Source: Candidatus Lindowiibacteriota bacterium (lineage in GTDB: Bacteria; Lindowbacteria; 2-12-FULL-62-27). From it: a DNA stretch of 21,532 nt. Shown here in pieces: positions 13,901-21,532 of this stretch. The translations under genes and the position numbers were made by a program. The notes under the pieces were generated by a model. The model was not told the origin of the DNA and ran no database searches. It was given only the letters and a program-made list of their open reading frames with translations. The stretch is taken from the NCBI GenBank assembly GCA_023249255.1, contig JAHFCY010000024.1:1-21532 (forward strand), written 5' to 3'. Within the stretch, counting starts at the first letter, position 1. Every line of letters begins with the position of its first letter.

Positions 13901-14143
13901 GGCGGGTTCATTTTTCCTTGAGACTGCAAGGCATTACGATTATACGGAGAAGTGGGAATGCATGGGAGGAATATCTAACATCCAGTCAATCCAGAGAGTT
14001 ATCCATAAATACACCCATACAATCGGGGCAACTCAACAGAAGGGTACATTTTTTGCAGACATTAAAGGGCATGCACGTATATAACTTAAATGTAGGAGTC
14101 GCACTCATTTCGTAAATTCGTTTGACAGGGAAAGGATTTGGTA

Positions 14144-15682
14144 ATGCGAGGGAGCCGATTGATCAGTGCCGCCATTTTGATTCTGATGACCGTATGTGCG
14201 TGGAGCGTGAGCGCCGCGCATGCGGCCGCATTCAGCGAGGCGTACGGAACATTTGCCGATCCGATAAAAGCCATCGATGGGGATCGAAGCACGTACGCCC
14301 AATCCAGCGATCCCTACCGCGGAGAATACTTCCTCATCATCCGGTTTCCCAAACCCTCTCTCGTTCGAAACTTCAAAATCCGATACACCGGCGCCGAGCC
14401 CAAAAACGTCATCACGGAAATGGGATCCGACGCGGTCAACTGGATACCCTACGAACTGGGAGAGAAGACGGCTTATCTTCGAATCCGCATCCCCGCCAAG
14501 CCCGGGGAAATTTTCAAGATTGCGGAAGTGGAAGCCAATTCCGAAGAAGCGCCGGCCGTGGTTTTCGCTCCAACCATAATCGAAGCCGCCAACATCGAAA
14601 CCACGGCGGTCATCCTCAACATCGGGTTCACCAAACCCGTCGCGGTATCCCTGAATTACGGTCTTTCCCCCGTCACCGAAGAAATGAAAAATTTTAGAGA
14701 GTATCCCTCGTATCAGACTTTTTACCAGATCAAACTCCTCGACCTCATCGAGGGGCTTGATTACTACGTCCGGGTGAAGGCGACGAGCGCGGAAGGCGAT
14801 TTGTTCGTCACCGAAGACACGGCGCCCGTCCATTTCCGGCTCCGCGGCACGCCGCCGCTCAGAGTGATCAGCCAGGGCGTCGGCTACGTCGGTCCCCTCT
14901 CGTTTTCGGTCATCGTCCAGACCAACATTCCCTCCCACAGCGTCTGTTATTTCGGCGAGCAGTCCAACTTCACCACCATCTTGAGCAAACCGGACTTCGA
15001 CACGGTCCACATTTTCGAGTTCAAGGACCTGTGGCCCCAGCGCCTCTACGCTTACATGCCCGTTCTCACCGACCACCGCGGCATGAACCTCAACATGGGC
15101 AAACAGCATGTCACGACCGCGGAACTCAACGTCGCCCGGGGCAAACGCGTCATCGCCGGCACATTCACCCAGCTTCGCGAGCCCGCATGGCAGGGCGGCG
15201 CGGAGTTGGTCGGCGATACGGTGCTCCAGCGCGTCACGAACGGAAACCTCGGATATTTCAAAGGGATGGCCCACAGCGGCGATCTGTCCAGGTCCGACCA
15301 GTACGCCGTCATCGATCTCGGCCGCGAATTTACCCTCGATGGGCATACCACCGTCTGGCGCGCGCTTGCCTATCCGTACTACTACGAGGTCTACACCTCG
15401 CTGGACAACACATCGTGGGAAAAACAGATCGTTATGACGGAGGAGCGCATTGCCGAAGGCCTGTCAACCCGGTCCGGTGACGGCGACCCGCTTCGGATTA
15501 CCGGTAGCCCGTTTCAGGAGGGCGTCAAAGCCCGCTACGTCAAACTCCTGATCCCGGCGGGCACAAAAATGGCCAGGCGGCACCGCACATGGACCAACGT
15601 CGATCTGGCCGAAATCATGATTTTCCCCGGCGGAACCTACGACGAAATCAAGCAGATCGCAAAGGAGATATGGCGTCCGTGA
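14144..15682 (+). CDS. secreted discoidin / fibronectin-III-like protein
   Basis: 512 residues. ATG 14144 has AAAGGA 7 nt upstream and is better than the TTG two codons earlier. The signal peptide is residues 1-29 (RLISAAILILMTVCAWSVSA, cut near AHAA). A first beta-sandwich of discoidin (F5/8 type C) type follows at about 30-125, with the AIDGDRSTYAQS motif. A fibronectin-III-like part at about 140-240 shows LIEGLDYYVRVKATSAEG. A second such domain and a complete discoidin domain at about 330-500 follow (NVARGKRVIAG, YAVIDLGREFTLDG, YEVYTSLDNTSWEKQ, ARYVKLLIPAG). Discoidin domains bind carbohydrate or ligand surfaces. The protein would be exported across the inner membrane; its final place is unknown. 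It precedes three secreted paralogues, so a shared surface or extracellular layer is possible. Confidence 0.82.
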   Translation: MRGSRLISAAILILMTVCAWSVSAAHAAAFSEAYGTFADPIKAIDGDRSTYAQSSDPYRGEYFLIIRFPKPSLVRNFKIRYTGAEPKNVITEMGSDAVNWIPYELGEKTAYLRIRIPAKPGEIFKIAEVEANSEEAPAVVFAPTIIEAANIETTAVILNIGFTKPVAVSLNYGLSPVTEEMKNFREYPSYQTFYQIKLLDLIEGLDYYVRVKATSAEGDLFVTEDTAPVHFRLRGTPPLRVISQGVGYVGPLSFSVIVQTNIPSHSVCYFGEQSNFTTILSKPDFDTVHIFEFKDLWPQRLYAYMPVLTDHRGMNLNMGKQHVTTAELNVARGKRVIAGTFTQLREPAWQGGAELVGDTVLQRVTNGNLGYFKGMAHSGDLSRSDQYAVIDLGREFTLDGHTTVWRALAYPYYYEVYTSLDNTSWEKQIVMTEERIAEGLSTRSGDGDPLRITGSPFQEGVKARYVKLLIPAGTKMARRHRTWTNVDLAEIMIFPGGTYDEIKQIAKEIWRP

Positions 15683-15755
15683 TCAGCCTGACGAATATTT
15701 ATTGTATCCGTCCTTTAACCATTTCGAAGATGAATCTCTCCGTCCCCAGTCAATC

Positions 15756-15811
15756 GGCCCTGCGGGCCTGCGACTATAGATCAGGACTGCCCAGGCGCTT
15801 TACGCCCGGGC
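15756..15811 (+). promoter_or_regulatory. two strong hairpins in the leader of the 15844 gene
   Basis: GGCCC (15756-15760), loop TGC, GGGCC (15764-15768) form the first hairpin. GCCCAGGCG (15789-15797), loop CTTTA, CGCCCGGGC (15803-15811) form the second, with one A-C mismatch. They end 19 nt before the AGGAGG ribosome site. No T-run follows directly, so they look like a structured leader for mRNA stability or control rather than a terminator. They fit no riboswitch consensus that I recognise. Confidence 0.55.
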
Positions 15812-15843
15812 GGGCGAAAATCTTTTCTCAGGAGGCTTAAGTT

Positions 15844-17526
15844 ATGAGATTTTCGATGAAGGCACTTTTGTTAATTGCGGTTGCTGTCGGGTTCACGGTC
15901 GCAATCACGGCTCCGGCCATGGCGACCTTTCCGAATTTCGACAACAACAACATGATCGACACCCCTCAACTTCTGTACAACGGTGACGCCACCGGCATGG
16001 AGTCAGGGGTTATCAACGGCGTCGCTTCAGACACCAGCGACTCGATTCTGCCCGGCGCCCTGTTCGTGGGCTACTACCGAACCAACGGGACGCATACGAG
16101 CGCCCGGGAGCGCACGACACAGGACACGCGCGCGACGTCGGACTCCGTTATGGGTGTCCCCGCCGCAACCATCATCACGCGGTTGATCATCGACAACGAC
16201 AGCAAAGTCCGACAGGTTATTGCCGGCGGTTTCCCCGGTTGGGTTTCCGGATTCTTCGATGCCGCCAACCCGTCGCACGGAAGCGAAACCTATCCTCGGA
16301 AAGTGCCGCCGGAAAGCGGAGACACCTTCGCGCTTGAGGACTCCGTGCCGTGGATCATGATCGAGCTTAAGGACACGGGCATAGCGGTTCTGCAGATCAT
16401 CAACACGAGCAACTACGCCTGTACCATGCAGGTCATGCTTCACATGCCCGACACCGAATTTCGAGCGAACCGGCTCGGCTCCTACAAGGAAAAAGACAGC
16501 CGGGTCATCGTCAAGTTCTACTCGAGCTTGTGCGGCGACTCGGTCAACACCACCAACGGCTGTGCCGCCATCCGGGATTCGGGTGATGTACCTATCATTG
16601 ACACCATTCCGGAACGAGGCACGGTGAAGTTGGCTGAAGACGCCGAGACGTTCATCTACTTCCGCGTCTATTCGGGTCCGCTTGCGAACGCCCGCGATTC
16701 GCTGGCGGTCACCATCGTGATGTATCCCGACTCCTGCCCCGACAGCGCCGCGTACAACTATACCGACACACGCTACCGGCGCGTCCGCATCTTCGACGAC
16801 ACGGGATACCGCGGCGATAACGACTCCAACTACGCCAAGGGCGGTTCGGAAGACTCCGTCTCGCTCTTTGTGCTGGTTGCCACGGCGATTGTGCGCGTCA
16901 AGAAGACCGATTCGGTCTTCGCGCCGTACAGCTACATGGACGCTATCGGGTTGAGCGGCAACCGCGACGGGAGTAATCGAAGCCATGACACGATTCCCGG
17001 CGCGCGCATCTGCTACACCATTGTCTACGACAACGACGGCAACAGGCGGGCCGACTCGCTTGAGATACAGGATTATCTGCCTGGAAACGTCGATCTGCTC
17101 GTCGACTCCTACTACAACGGCACCGACACGTACTACGCCAATGGCATCGGCGTGGATACCCGTTGGGGCCACGCGCGCTACAAGCAGAACGGCCAGGCCG
17201 CCTCGGAATGGCCGGAGGATATCTTCGCCCAGGTCCTGTTCTCGTCTCTCACCGCTGCCGATTCGCAGCTGTTTTCGATCCAGGCGACGCCATTCGTAGG
17301 ACGCTGCATAGCCGACTCGGTCGTCGATTCGGTTGCGGGTATCAGGATACGGTGGCCGGCTGGCGATTCCATGTCGCTTCAGCGCGATCAGATTGACGAC
17401 GAGTACAGCACCGGCAACTGGATGGATCCTCTGTCGACGGTTGACGGGCTGACATTCGGAGCCAATGCACAGAGTACCGACAGCGGCGACTGCGGCAAGA
17501 TCAGCTTCGCAGTGGTTATCCGCTAA
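15844..17526 (+). CDS. secreted Asp/Ser/Thr-rich protein, first of three paralogues
   Basis: 560 residues. The signal peptide is residues 1-28 (ALLLIAVAVGFTVAITAPAMA, cut before TFPN). ATG 15844 has a perfect AGGAGG 8 nt upstream. The mature chain is rich in Asp, Ser, Thr and Asn, low in Lys, and has few Cys (near CGDSVNTTNGC and DSCPDS). Near residues 355-430 it carries the block KTDSVFAPYSYMDA then DTIPGARICYTIVYDNDGN, a DUF11-like beta module ('PG..v.YTi...NdG') shared with the genes at 19071 and 20528. It ends GDCGKISFAVVIR; the 19071 product ends with the matching SVVIR. It has no recognised catalytic site. It is probably a surface-layer or extracellular matrix protein, or a cargo of an unidentified export system, and would be abundant given the strong ribosome site. 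Confidence 0.85.
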   Translation: MRFSMKALLLIAVAVGFTVAITAPAMATFPNFDNNNMIDTPQLLYNGDATGMESGVINGVASDTSDSILPGALFVGYYRTNGTHTSARERTTQDTRATSDSVMGVPAATIITRLIIDNDSKVRQVIAGGFPGWVSGFFDAANPSHGSETYPRKVPPESGDTFALEDSVPWIMIELKDTGIAVLQIINTSNYACTMQVMLHMPDTEFRANRLGSYKEKDSRVIVKFYSSLCGDSVNTTNGCAAIRDSGDVPIIDTIPERGTVKLAEDAETFIYFRVYSGPLANARDSLAVTIVMYPDSCPDSAAYNYTDTRYRRVRIFDDTGYRGDNDSNYAKGGSEDSVSLFVLVATAIVRVKKTDSVFAPYSYMDAIGLSGNRDGSNRSHDTIPGARICYTIVYDNDGNRRADSLEIQDYLPGNVDLLVDSYYNGTDTYYANGIGVDTRWGHARYKQNGQAASEWPEDIFAQVLFSSLTAADSQLFSIQATPFVGRCIADSVVDSVAGIRIRWPAGDSMSLQRDQIDDEYSTGNWMDPLSTVDGLTFGANAQSTDSGDCGKISFAVVIR

Positions 17527-17579
17527 CGCGAGGAGGAGAAACGTATCGGCGAGCGTAGAGCTTAACCACACGCGCCAAT

Positions 17580-17640
17580 AATCTCAGGCGACAGGCCAAT
17601 GTGCCCGTTAAGGGCCGGCCGGGCCTGGCGGACGGAGATT
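17580..17640 (+). other. compound stem-loop at the 5' end of the structured region
   Basis: Three nested helices: AATCTC (17580-17585) with GAGATT (17635-17640); CAGGCC (17592-17597) with GGCCTG (17622-17627); GCCC (17603-17606) with GGGC (17612-17615) around GTTAA. All pairs are Watson-Crick. It begins about 50 nt after the stop codon of the upstream gene and includes the ATG of the open frame at 17599. Confidence 0.6.
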
Positions 17641-18019
17641 GGACGCGGCTTAAGTAGCAAGGCGGAACGTGGAGTACGTTTCGAACAGAAGGTTGACCGG
17701 GAGGTTTGGCCGAAGGACGGGCTGATCATTCCGACAGCGGTGGTTCAAGCGCCGGCTGGGATTGTAAGGGGGGAACCCGCAGACGCGGGCCGGAGTTCCA
17801 ATATCCGGAGCGCGCGATATCTTGATCTGCAGGGATCTCCGGCACCCGCGCGAGGTGTAGCCGCGGATGCTCCAGGGCAGGTGTACAGCCATGGCCTTAC
17901 AGCGGGATACCATGTTCGAGATGTACGTGTTTCGCCTGTGCGAACGAGCTGCAGAATTCTCCAGTTCGACAGGACTGTGGACGGTGATGAATTGATAACC
18001 GGAGAAGCGCTTCCGGCGA

Positions 18020-18046
18020 GGGATGAGGCCGAAAGGCCGAAGTCCC
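18020..18046 (+). other. GAAA-tetraloop hairpin with tandem-GA internal loop
   Basis: GGCC (18027-18030), GAAA, GGCC (18035-18038) form a perfect GNRA hairpin. Outside it, GGGA (18020-18023) pairs with TCCC (18043-18046), leaving TGA opposite GAAG. This offers two G-A pairs next to the inner helix, a kink-turn-like or loop-E-like arrangement. It also resembles, but does not meet, the hammerhead core. Confidence 0.5.
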
Positions 18047-18288
18047 AAAGCCACTGGATGGCCGCACCCGCATCGCCCGCGGTGTGGCGGATCGTCCGGG
18101 AACAGGAAGCGCCGAACGGAGTGACGGAACATCCCCGGAATGACAAACCGGGAATGGTCGACGCCCCCTTTCGTAAAAGAAAGGCGGACGAAGACGCTCT
18201 GTCAAGAACGGCGCGGGCCGCACCCAACGCCTCCGGGTCGGTTTCGCGTAATTTTCGCCCTGAATGTCTTGATCTTTATCGCAAGGCC

Positions 18289-18304
18289 GGAACCTTCGGG
18301 TTCC
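18289..18304 (+). other. cUUCGg tetraloop hairpin
   Basis: GGAACC, TTCG, GGTTCC: six perfect base pairs capped by C(UUCG)G, the most stable common RNA tetraloop. On the opposite strand the loop would be CGAA, so the hairpin argues for + strand RNA. A second hairpin with a 6-nt loop follows at once (18308-18326). Confidence 0.65.
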
Positions 18305-18739
18305 CCTCGATGGTCCTATCCCATCGGGTCACGCTTTGTGAGGCTCAGGGTCGGGGGCTTTTCAGCCGGATCGAACATGCGCCACAAGATACAAGGATAC
18401 ATCGCAGGTGGCCGACCGGCGCGAAACGCATGGATATCCTGCTCTCTGTTTTCCTTTCCTCTCACAACATGAATCCCGTCAATGAATCTCCCCCGCGTTC
18501 CAGATGCGGCCCCGTCGTGCGTCCTACCGCACGGCCTGGCCCCGCAGTTCTCGGATCCCGGCGGACGTTTCGACGGATCATGTCCGGAGTTGTCAGAGGA
18601 AAAGAATATAGGGGGGGATATCTATTCTGATGGCGGGGGTGGCGATGCGGTTCAGGTAGTTCATTCGCGCAGGGACGGCGGACCAGGTTCGTGCGTCCTG
18701 AACACGAATAAATACGCAGGGCTTCCCTAACCGGAAGGA

Positions 18740-18765
18740 GATCACAGGTTCGATTCCATGTGATC
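18740..18765 (+). other. T-loop hairpin resembling a tRNA T-arm
   Basis: GATCACA (18740-18746) pairs with TGTGATC (18759-18765); inside, GG/CC closes the 7-nt loop TTCGATT, with one bulged A at 18758. The loop matches the T-loop consensus UUCRANN. No acceptor, D or anticodon arm accompanies it, so it is not a tRNA. T-loops recur in RNase P, tmRNA and other large RNAs, where they make tertiary contacts. Confidence 0.55.
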
Positions 18766-18786
18766 GCCAGGCAGGGGAGAGGAACC

Positions 18787-18861
18787 TTGGAAACGCTCCG
18801 CACTCGATGCGGAACCCCTCGGGGAGCGTACCCGGATAACATCCGAACGCCGCGTTTCCAA
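18787..18861 (+). other. 10-bp helix closing a multi-branch junction with three hairpins
   Basis: TTGGAAACGC (18787-18796) is the exact complement of GCGTTTCCAA (18852-18861), 55 nt apart. Between them lie CCGCA/TGCGG (18798-18812, loop CTCGA), CCCC/GGGG (18815-18824) and CGGAT/ATCCG (18833-18845, loop AAC), all perfect. A long closing helix that holds three exact hairpins in a row is very unlike protein-coding sequence. Confidence 0.65.
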
Positions 18862-18869
18862 AATATAGC

Positions 18870-18887
18870 GAGAGCGTAAAAGCTCTC
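18870..18887 (+). other. GUAAAA-hexaloop hairpin (second copy; first at 18167-18184)
   Basis: GAGAGC, loop GTAAAA, GCTCTC here; CCTTTC, loop GTAAAA, GAAAGG at 18167-18184. The stems differ in sequence but both have six perfect pairs, a C-G closing pair and the identical six-base loop. Confidence 0.6.
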
Positions 18888-18908
18888 AGCGAAGTCGGTG
18901 AGGTGAGG

Positions 18909-19051
18909 CTGCGCGCATGAAGAGTTTGTGCGCAGAAGACTAAGCCGCAGGCAGCGGGTGAAGACTGTCCCCAGCAGCTTGGCAGACTTTGCAGGGTAGA
19001 GGACTCGCCTGTATGCGGGCGGGGATTCGCAAAACGTATTGACCGTTTTGC
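18909..19051 (+). promoter_or_regulatory. hairpin series directly before the 19071 gene
   Basis: CTGCGCGCA (18909-18917) with TGTGCGCAG (18927-18935), 9 bp with one G-U; CCGC/GCGG (18945-18957); CGCCTG/CGGGCG (19006-19021, loop TATG, one G-U); GCAAAACG/CGTTTTGC (19029-19051, 8 bp, loop TATTGAC). The last stem ends 19 nt before ATG 19071 and just before its weak AGGTG site. This may be the 3' part of the large RNA, or a separate leader that stabilises or controls the secreted-protein mRNA. Confidence 0.55.
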
Positions 19052-19070
19052 ACGGGATAGGTGTTTGCCC

Positions 19071-20531
19071 ATGGCTCGGACGAAGGCGACATTGAATAAG
19101 GAGGAATATAAGGGCTTTTTAAAGTTATTCCTACAGCGGAGTAACTGCGCCCTGGGTCTGCGCCTTTCGTCCGTCCTTCTGACCGCCGCGCTTCTCGGCG
19201 GGCTCATCCTCGCCTCCGCCGTTCCCGTCTCCGCCACGTTCAACTCCAACAACCACACCTACGACATCGACTCGGGCACCAAGCTGTTCAGCACCGGCCA
19301 GACCTCGGCCATTTCCGCCGGCCAAAACGGCGTCTTCACCCTGAGTTTCCACCGGACCAACGCCCCGTCGACCTTGTCTTACGCGCTGGTTGGCGCCGGC
19401 GATTCGGTCACGCCGGTTGTCGCGCAGATATTCGGCGACACGATGGCCGTCATCAAAGGCGTGGATGCAGGCGGCAGCGCCACCACCGTCAACGACACCT
19501 TCATCGTCTCCGGCGATACGGATGGGGCGCATGACACCCTTTACCTGACCAGCGACACAGCCGGCACAAACGACACGTTGAGTTACACGCTCTCCATCGC
19601 CAATTACGGCAACGGATCGGATTCGATCGGCCTCATCGTCGACACGGTCTGGTTGAGCGCCGCGGACACGACCACCACCGGCCGATTCAGCTATCAGTTC
19701 TTCAACAAGCGCGGAGACACCCTGACGACCGTCCTGACGGCCACCCAGCAGGAGACGGGACTGATCGGCATTTCGCCCACGGCGGCGACGGCCGAAACGG
19801 CGATGCTGCGGATTTACACCAAGGGCACGGTCAATGCGGACACCATCCGCGTGGCGGTCCGCGCGATGGCCAACAACGGGACAGGTCGCGTCGACACTGC
19901 CGAGGTCAACTCCTATCGCGGATTGAACGGCATCCGGTACGGCGGAAGCGGCAACGCCGCGACGTACATCGAGGTCGCCGTCAGCGGGCCGCTCCTCAGG
20001 CTCGCCGAAACCGACACCGTCTTCTCGCCGGTTGCGCTCTCGGCAACGGCGAGTGACACCCAGCGCTACATTCCGGGATCGCTCATCGTCTACACGCTGT
20101 GGTTTGACAACGACGGCAACGACACCGGCGACACGATCGGCGTCGAATACTGGATCGACACGCGCCATGTCCGATTCGACAGCCAGGGATTGAGCCAGCT
20201 CAATGGCGTGTCGCAGGTCGCCGCGGCCGGGACGTACGTCATCAAGGGCTACGGCAACATCTTCCTCGACAGCGCCATGCCGACCTTCTCCAATACCGGA
20301 TTCAGGGTCGCGGTCGAATACGTCAATGCGGCCGGCGCGTGGGCGGACATCAAGACCGCGCCGACGCCGGAAGCCGTCGCCCGGATCCGCTGGACGATTT
20401 CGCGTAACGGCGGCGTGATCGGCGCTTCGAACGGCGACGACATCAACACGATCGACAGCGCGCCCATGGCGCCGACGTCTTCCGGCGACGTCGACATGGG
20501 CTTCGTGCGCTTCTCGGTGGTGATCAGATGA
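19071..20531 (+). CDS. secreted Asp/Thr-rich protein, second paralogue
   Basis: 486 residues from ATG 19071; AGGTG lies about 7 nt upstream, and a TTG two codons earlier is less likely. A long basic N-region (residues 1-30) precedes the hydrophobic core LLTAALLGGLILASAVPVSA, with cleavage before TFNS. The rest is rich in Asp, Thr, Ser, Gly and Asn and has no Cys after the signal region. It aligns by eye with the 20528 product (NSYRGLNGIRYGGSG against RTFRGFNGDTYGGDG; YIPGSLIVYTLWFDNDGN against HIPGAVVVYTLWFDNDDS) and with the 15844 product. It ends DMGFVRFSVVIR. The conserved part is a DUF11-like beta module. An AAGGAGG at 19098 inside the coding sequence has no start codon behind it. Function unknown; probably cell-surface or extracellular. 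Confidence 0.82.
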   Translation: MARTKATLNKEEYKGFLKLFLQRSNCALGLRLSSVLLTAALLGGLILASAVPVSATFNSNNHTYDIDSGTKLFSTGQTSAISAGQNGVFTLSFHRTNAPSTLSYALVGAGDSVTPVVAQIFGDTMAVIKGVDAGGSATTVNDTFIVSGDTDGAHDTLYLTSDTAGTNDTLSYTLSIANYGNGSDSIGLIVDTVWLSAADTTTTGRFSYQFFNKRGDTLTTVLTATQQETGLIGISPTAATAETAMLRIYTKGTVNADTIRVAVRAMANNGTGRVDTAEVNSYRGLNGIRYGGSGNAATYIEVAVSGPLLRLAETDTVFSPVALSATASDTQRYIPGSLIVYTLWFDNDGNDTGDTIGVEYWIDTRHVRFDSQGLSQLNGVSQVAAAGTYVIKGYGNIFLDSAMPTFSNTGFRVAVEYVNAAGAWADIKTAPTPEAVARIRWTISRNGGVIGASNGDDINTIDSAPMAPTSSGDVDMGFVRFSVVIR

Positions 20532-21532
20532 CCGCCCTTCTGCGCATCTTCGGCCTTGAGGACCGGGGCGGGAAGTCTGTGCGGATCATGACGTCGCTGG
20601 CCGCCATCGCGCTGATCGTCATGGGTCTTGTCGTGCCCGTCCATGCGGACGACACGCTCGGGATTTACGGCGGTCCGCAGAAACCGTCTCACGGCGGCGG
20701 AACATTGACGGTGAGTATCGCCGACGGCGTCGCCGTCACGACCCCGGGCCAATCAGGCGGATTCATCTACCGGCGCAATTCGACGACCGACTCGAGCTTC
20801 GCGTTGCGGTCGTTGAATCCGACCATCCGGCGATTTGACACGTACGTCAGCGACACGCTGTCGCTGTCGTCGGAGAGTGTCGTGGGCGTCGCGGCTCCGG
20901 CGACCGACACGGCGCGCAAGATTCTCGTGGGTGAGACGGGCATCTACATCCTGTCGGTCACGAATCTCGGCAACGCGCCGGATTCGATCGGGTTTGTGAT
21001 CGATTCGGCGATGGTCAACGGATACACGGGCGATGACACGATGTTCCAGTGGTCGGCGTTCTTCTACGACTCGCGCGGCGTGAAGATGGCCGGGCCCATC
21101 AGCACACGCGGCCGCGACACCGTCTTCATCCGCCTCGATCCGAACAAGTCCGACACGATCATGGTCCGCATCTACGCCGATACGGCCGCGCCCGATTCGT
21201 CCTGGATGGTGTTCCGCGTCGGCTCGTATGTCGCCAACGGCAACGCGACGGCCTTCGCAATCCGCACGTTCCGCGGATTCAACGGCGACACCTATGGCGG
21301 CGACGGGCACGACTCGATCACGCTGTACATGGAACTCAAGCCGGCGTCGAAACTGCGCGTCGCGAAAGCCGACACCGTGGTGTCGGGCATATCGCTTGGC
21401 GGCGCGATGCAGATGTCGGCCGAGGACACCCAGCATCACATTCCGGGCGCGGTCGTCGTCTACACACTGTGGTTTGACAACGACGACAGCGCGACGGCCG
21501 ACACGGTCGTCCTCGAGGACTGGATCGATACG
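20528..21532 (+). CDS. secreted Asp/Thr-rich protein, third paralogue (3' end outside window)
   Basis: 335 residues are visible and the frame is open to the right edge. The ATG overlaps the stop of the 19071 gene (ATGA), so translation is coupled. A basic start (MTALLRIFGLEDRGGKSVRI) is followed by the hydrophobic core MTSLAAIALIVMGLVVPV and probable cleavage near HADD. The mature part is Asp/Thr/Ser-rich beta sequence, with VTNLGNAPDSIGFVID matching the 19071 product's IANYGNGSDSIGLIVD, then RTFRGFNGDTYGGDG, KADTVVSGISLGG and HIPGAVVVYTLWFDNDD. It is a tandem duplicate of the preceding gene. The final length and C-terminus cannot be seen. Function unknown; likely part of the same surface or extracellular structure. 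Confidence 0.85.
   Translation, partial: MTALLRIFGLEDRGGKSVRIMTSLAAIALIVMGLVVPVHADDTLGIYGGPQKPSHGGGTLTVSIADGVAVTTPGQSGGFIYRRNSTTDSSFALRSLNPTIRRFDTYVSDTLSLSSESVVGVAAPATDTARKILVGETGIYILSVTNLGNAPDSIGFVIDSAMVNGYTGDDTMFQWSAFFYDSRGVKMAGPISTRGRDTVFIRLDPNKSDTIMVRIYADTAAPDSSWMVFRVGSYVANGNATAFAIRTFRGFNGDTYGGDGHDSITLYMELKPASKLRVAKADTVVSGISLGGAMQMSAEDTQHHIPGAVVVYTLWFDNDDSATADTVVLEDWIDT

Follow-up and report, generated by a model that had tools for sequence, protein, structure and literature searches.

A large structured RNA overlapping an open reading frame between secreted-protein genes of Candidatus Lindowbacteria

The spacer between two genes for secreted proteins (positions 17527-19070, + strand) very probably encodes a real structured RNA on the + strand. 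It lies in the window, the whole stretch of 21,532 nucleotides (nt) that was analysed (contig JAHFCY010000024.1). An open reading frame runs through the middle of this RNA and exceeds what chance or RNA structure alone would give. Judged by its sequence, the RNA appears to represent an undescribed class, absent from Rfam and known so far from a single phylum. Our preferred explanation, held tentatively and at close to even chances, is a giant structured operon leader that would control translation of the downstream gene (gene 2); translation of the open frame would serve to affect the RNA or the message. To our knowledge, bacterial RNA classes as large as this are few, and most of them are without known function. 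A new class from a phylum of three genomes suggests that more are hidden in sparsely sampled lineages. Strong RNA structure together with an open frame lacking protein-level selection is an unusual pairing, and the surrounding operon of secreted cargo proteins with type IX secretion system (T9SS)-like features provides a testable target gene. The features of the locus are as follows.

15844-17526, + strand: gene 1, the upstream neighbour, encoding a secreted protein with weak DUF11 similarity
17551-17649, + strand: 5' domain, with conserved GAGCGTAGAGCnTAACCACACGCG, a covarying outer helix and a conserved hairpin
Within 17551-17649, + strand: the conserved hairpin of the 5' domain, CGACAGGCC-AAUG-GCCC...GGGC-GGCC-GGCCUG
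17599-18630, + strand: open reading frame with an ATG start, 343 codons
17650-18630, + strand: middle region, structured, of variable length (∼0.7-1.0 kb), overlapping the open frame
17960-17981, + strand: conserved hairpin of the middle region, block GACAGGRCTGTGGACGG
18308-18326, + strand: conserved hairpin of the middle region, CGATGG-TCCNATC-CCATCG
18716-19070, + strand: 3' domain of about 355 nt, terminating at the gene 2 start codon
18721-18738, + strand: PA hairpin, loop CUAACC
18740-18765, + strand: PB hairpin, tRNA T-arm-like, GG-UUCGAUU-CC
18771-18787, + strand: conserved block GCAGGGGAGAGGAACCT, predicted to pair with either an upstream or a downstream partner
18787-18861, + strand: PC, a long helix enclosing three hairpins
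18870-18887, + strand: P1 hairpin, GAGAGC/GCUCUC in two genomes and AGCGUCC/GGACGCU in the third (G002)
18889-18992, + strand: P2, GCGAAGUC/GACUUUGC, the helix that closes a junction containing P3 and the variable P4
18994-19070, + strand: P7, GGGUAG/UUUGCCC, closing P5 and P6
19071-20531, + strand: gene 2, the downstream neighbour, a secreted paralogue; the position of its ATG at 19071 is conserved
19123-19146, + strand: 9-bp hairpin in the first 76 nt of gene 2, AGUUAUUCC-UACAGC-GGARUAACU

Candidatus Lindowbacteria is represented by three genomes in the set searched: the source genome of the window, Candidatus Lindowbacteria bacterium RIFCSPLOWO2_12_FULL_62_27 (G001) and the groundwater MAG NC_groundwater_1274 (G002). 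All three carry the spacer at the identical place, with lengths of 1,544 nt (window), 1,212 nt (G001) and 1,277 nt (G002), and in a DNA search of 98 genomes G001 gave two co-linear matches and G002 gave one. Each genome has the same gene order (a gene with an F5/8-type-C domain, gene 1, the spacer, gene 2 and gene 3); a PorV/TPR-like gene follows gene 3 in G001 and G002, and the window stops within gene 3. The operon (14138-21532 and its equivalents) encodes the F5/8C-domain protein and weakly DUF11-like secreted paralogues, gene 3 of G001 has weak FlgD/T9SS-sorting similarity, and the whole resembles a cluster of type IX-type secretion cargo in Lindowbacteria. Just upstream of gene 1, at 15676-15825, the minus strand folds strongly (z about -4.1), and the fold includes CCCAGGCG-CTTTA-CGCCCGGG.

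Aligning the three spacers revealed near-invariant blocks with variable stretches between them. Short blocks are 78 to 92% identical across genera, compared to just 41 to 46% identity at the third codon positions of gene 1. In the conserved blocks, third codon positions are conserved as much as first and second positions, and therefore it is the nucleotide sequence, not a protein, that is constrained there.

Perfect hairpins (stem of ≥5, loop of 3 to 12) number 20 in 17527-19070, compared to 12.1 ± 2.7 in dinucleotide shuffles, and the homologous spacers are likewise enriched, with 18 (9.0 expected) and 19 (10.2 expected); counts in three 1,544-nt coding stretches of the window were near expectation. 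Folding of the + strand relative to dinucleotide shuffles gave z-scores (window, G001 and G002, respectively) of -2.3, -2.9, and -2.7 for the 5' domain, -6.6, -4.1, and -5.6 for the middle region, and -4.1, -4.5, and -3.2 for the 3' domain, with six coding controls between 0.1 and -2.5. The 3' domain scores on the reverse strand too, as perfect hairpins will. Single-genome sliding-window z-scores alone are modest and would understate the structure. Chance structure was rejected on the z-scores and hairpin counts from three genomes and their coding controls. An earlier sequence-only reading of this DNA had remarked on the abundance of hairpins and on the lack of comparable structure in the neighbouring genes, and the hairpin counts and fold controls bear out both remarks.

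At least five helices have changed in both strands between genomes and kept their pairing, and the helices that pair with differing sequence comprise PC, the outer 5' helix, PB, P1, P6 and one middle hairpin. Within the covarying helices, 149 of 150 positions pair when both strands come from one genome and 147 of 266 when each strand is taken from a different genome; the choice of helices for their pairing biases the first figure upward and leaves the contrast informative. In the 3' core, 96% of cells are paired, falling to 27 to 40% once partners are slid by 1 to 3 columns. A shuffle control of this core was weak (32 of 500 shuffles of the three sequences reached the observed score), because the core is highly conserved and only three sequences are available. 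The minimum free energy folds predicted for the 3' core broadly resemble one another across the three genomes. The large structured + strand RNA proposed from the single sequence is thus upheld by compensatory changes in two homologous genomes; collecting homologous spacers and examining covariation had been the suggested check, and the helices keep pairing in the window, G001 and G002.

The 3' domain measures ∼355 nt in the window, 368 nt in G001 and 313 nt in G002, and a covariance model of its core (R1) scores 152 to 176 bits in the three genomes. The PA loop is CUAAYC in the window and G002 and UAACUU in G001. The outer stem of PB covaries in all three genomes (ATCAC/GTGAT, TGTAT/ATACA, and CTTTT/GGAAG), with GGG-UUCAAAU-CCC as its loop portion in G001. 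The earlier reading had described a 10-bp helix enclosing three hairpins; it is present, as TTGGAAACGC (18787-18796) and GCGTTTCCAA (18852-18861), with three hairpins between its strands, and this helix, PC, is perfect in each of the three genomes although its sequence is unrelated between them (TGGAAACG/CGTTTCCA, GGGAATATT/AATATTCCC, and CGTCCGTCAG/CTGACGGGCG). P6 likewise differs between genomes (GCAAAACG/CGUUUUGC versus GCGAAGCG/CGCUUUGC). Of the loops said to mark a real RNA, the T-loop (18740-18765), the UUCG loop (18289-18304) and the GUAAAA loops (18167-18184 and 18870-18887) are all there, but several are not conserved: the UUCG hairpin is without a counterpart in the alignment with G001 and G002, and the P1 loop, GUAAAA in the window, is AGCA in G002. 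Within the block at 18771-18787, a 15-nt core, AGGGGAGAGGAACCT, is the same in all three genomes. In two predicted folds the invariant block AGGGGAGAGGAACCU pairs mainly upstream, and in the third it pairs downstream.

The 3' strand of P7 (19064-19070) directly abuts the gene 2 AUG. The strand before this AUG has a predicted pairing probability of about 0.9 to 1 in all three genomes, and the AUG itself is predicted to be open or partly open in each. DNA conservation extends about 75 nt into gene 2, whose start is near-identical in the three genomes and retains its TTA and CTA codons in a genome rich in GC. At 19094-19146, the DNA coding for the N-terminal NKEEYKG-LKLFLQRNN of gene 2 is almost identical across three genera and holds a AAGGAGGA motif; the encoded peptide precedes the predicted signal peptide.

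The 5' domain is 78 to 89% identical across genera, and its covariance model (R2) scores 105 to 118 bits in all three genomes. Its outer helix (17575-17579/17638-17642) reads CCAAT/ATTGG, CGTTC/GAATG and GTCTT/AAGAC. The distance separating the downstream ATG from the gene 1 stop (17527-17599) is fixed even though much of the intervening sequence varies, and a second in-frame TAA is conserved in the domain. Both G001 and G002 also have a second copy of the 5' domain, shorter, diverged and in reverse orientation, which lies ∼8 kb downstream at the operon's far end (L005:17076-17160, - strand, and L006:48-97, + strand), with R2 scores of 36.1 and 23.8 bits and 68% blastn identity to the first copy over 96 nt. 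The window's contig stops short of the corresponding position. We considered whether the two copies might be the inverted sites of an invertible segment and rejected this, as the cores differ in G002.

In the middle region, the stem of the hairpin at 17960-17981 is UCCA/UGGA in the window, CCAC/GUGG in G001 and UUAC/GUGG in G002, and the block GATGGTCCnATCCCATC of the hairpin at 18308-18326 is the same in all three genomes, third codon positions included. The open frame is 343 codons long in the window and shorter in G001 (242) and G002 (278). In every genome its ATG lies 72 nt past the gene 1 stop, and its frame therefore equals that of gene 1; it ends 49 to 91 nt ahead of the 3' domain. The remaining two + frames contain 7 to 14 stops each over the same stretch, and the frame starting at 17599 contains none. 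A frame this open has a chance probability of 0.0005, 0.001, and 0.004 (window, G001 and G002, respectively) in dinucleotide shuffles and of <2e-4, 6e-4, and 8e-4 in structure-preserving shuffles; these values are per genome and not independent, since the three genomes are related. The structure-preserving shuffles show that RNA structure does not account for the frame being open, and stops in all reverse frames exclude a mirror of a reverse-strand gene.

The frame does not behave like an ordinary gene. Its codon score is -0.11 to -0.21, compared to +0.05 to +0.40 for 22 local genes, GC content and base composition are flat across codon positions, and substitutions among the window, G001 and G002 showed no codon-position bias. 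Clear amino acid conservation of the frame was not found outside the RNA blocks. Its translation matched no Pfam family and nothing above the NCBIfam cut-offs; blastp among the three translations gave short matches only (best E values of 2e-6 and 9e-4), largely over nucleotide-conserved blocks, and a single-sequence AlphaFold2 model had a pLDDT of 33, which is weak evidence. The earlier statement that no ordinary protein gene is visible had overlooked the 343-codon frame at 17599-18630, which is without gene-like codon usage. A coding signature in one frame, named at the time as evidence against an RNA, is half present: the frame has stayed open in each of the three genomes but shows neither codon bias nor a pattern of synonymous substitution among them.

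The RNA was compared to known families in three cmscan runs with permissive E values. Covariance models for GOLLD, ROOL and OLE belong to Rfam. A scan of 17500-19180 with all 4,227 families of Rfam 15 (E ≤ 5) returned only chance-level matches to unrelated small families, the spacer alone gave few matches with E values of 0.7 to 5, far under the family cut-offs, and the G001 spacer likewise gave chance-level matches only. There was no match to GOLLD, ROOL or OLE (Rfam 15, E ≤ 5), and group I and II intron catalytic cores were unmatched at E ≤ 5. The earlier failure to recognize a family thus agrees with the lack of any credible Rfam match. Some established RNAs could be set aside individually: a diverged RNase P RNA, with normal RNase P elsewhere in all three genomes; a diverged tmRNA, with a tmRNA above cut-off elsewhere in two genomes; and a tRNA, with none found by ARAGORN in spite of the T-arm-like PB hairpin.

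For a wider search, R1 and R2 (some variable loops were hand-trimmed before alignment) were each run on 386 genomes. R2 found the three Lindowbacteria only. Beyond these, R1 matched 17 genomes at 34 bits or less; the best of these matches (G375, 33.7 bits) lies within a same-strand coding gene, which we take to be ThiF/MoeB-like, and was dismissed as chance, and the remaining matches outside Lindowbacteria are taken for chance too. Pattern matches in Terriglobus, Capnocytophaga and others had only an 18-mer in common, and the phages, plasmids and viral contigs searched contained no real match.

The placement of P7 at the AUG, the alternative pairings and the conservation running into gene 2 lead us to favour a cis-acting leader. 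An RNA of ∼1.2 to 1.5 kb would be made within the message of the operon for secreted proteins with T9SS-like features, and it would consist of a conserved 5' domain, a structured middle of variable length and a conserved 3' domain of ∼310 to 370 nt. It would most likely act in cis: the 3' domain may fold over the ribosome-binding region of gene 2, with P7 placed between a Shine-Dalgarno (SD)-like GGUG and the AUG, and the conserved purine-rich block could pair in two ways, as alternative conformations would. Folding would thereby set the level of gene 2 translation relative to gene 1, and translation of the open frame might serve mainly to act on the RNA or to hold ribosomes on the message, rather than to make a conserved protein. 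Co-transcription, translational control and the role of the frame are points that we infer. Against a leader stand its size of 1.2 to 1.5 kb, far larger than known regulatory leaders, the lone shorter copy of the 5' domain elsewhere in two genomes, which suits a separable module, and the open frame, which suggests more than a noncoding leader. In a related scheme, which we consider unlikely, the act of translation would be the signal: the body of the giant RNA would be kept open without selection on a peptide, and passage of ribosomes would remodel the RNA and so switch the downstream gene.

A serious rival, although one we find somewhat doubtful, is an independent, stable giant noncoding RNA comparable to OLE, ROOL or GOLLD, processed from the operon or made from its own promoter, with the nearness of gene 2 incidental and action in trans, as a multimer or as an RNP. 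The size, the many helices, the T-loop and the long-range helices suit such an RNA, as do structure across the whole 1.2 to 1.5 kb, beyond the vicinity of gene 2, and a separable 5' domain that has an oppositely oriented second copy. However, a search for the sigma-70 consensus only found no promoter-like or terminator-like site on the + strand, P7 stops exactly at the gene 2 AUG with conservation running on into the gene, and such an RNA offers no place for an open frame. The sequence-only reading had proposed an independent or processed noncoding RNA; given P7 and the conservation into gene 2, a cis-acting leader fits at least as well.

That the frame is instead a protein gene, encoding a fast-evolving, lineage-specific basic protein from an mRNA highly structured by chance and flanked by regulatory hairpins, strikes us as distinctly improbable. 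It would explain a frame that stays open in the three genomes to a degree that neither chance nor structure accounts for, a start 72 nt past gene 1 in each, conserved blocks that share the frame and the short blastp matches (E values of 2e-6 and 9e-4). It fits poorly with a codon score under those of all 22 local genes, flat GC by codon position and unbiased substitutions, with equally conserved third positions in the very blocks that hold the main blastp match, with the absence of a Pfam family or an NCBIfam match above cut-off, with the low pLDDT of 33 (single sequence, weak evidence) and with a start codon that lies within a strong hairpin and has no evident SD sequence. A self-splicing intron, another mobile RNA element or a relic inserted between the genes is very improbable: a large, complex RNA with an ornate conserved core and a duplicated 5' domain would suit it, but no Rfam intron family matched at E ≤ 5, the frame is without a reverse transcriptase or endonuclease domain, and the site is the same in three genera with one full copy per genome. 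We give equally little credence to chance hairpins in a GC-rich spacer whose conserved blocks are DNA sites for a regulator or for recombination. The 22-bp 5' motif does recur inverted 8 kb away, in G001 and in degenerate form in G002, but the fold z-scores, the hairpin enrichment and the compensatory changes in all three genomes speak against it.

Group I and group II introns are also large and ornate RNAs, some with an ORF, but the Lindowbacteria RNA has no core motif recognized by covariance models at E ≤ 5. HEARO/OMEGA-type RNAs share the association of a structured RNA with a reading frame; here the ORF encodes no HNH/IsrB-like protein, the RNA has no Rfam match, and an adjacent IsrB/HNH-type ORF of the HEARO kind was not found (no Pfam match and none above the NCBIfam cut-off). 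GOLLD, ROOL and OLE are large ornate bacterial RNAs of poorly understood function, and they form discrete, abundant RNAs that assemble into homo-oligomers (PMC12286853). The Lindowbacteria RNA resembles them as a large bacterial RNA with many helices, covarying stems, poorly conserved overall sequence and a poorly understood function, and extensive structure with covariation was found in its three sequences; it differs from them in the open frame over most of its middle and in a 3' end that abuts a start codon. With riboswitches and translational leaders it shares a conserved, structured stretch of RNA immediately ahead of a start codon (in all three genomes, assuming co-transcription), a conserved block with predicted alternative pairings and a closed helix before the AUG, but it is much larger, and its downstream genes encode secreted surface proteins instead of metabolic ones.
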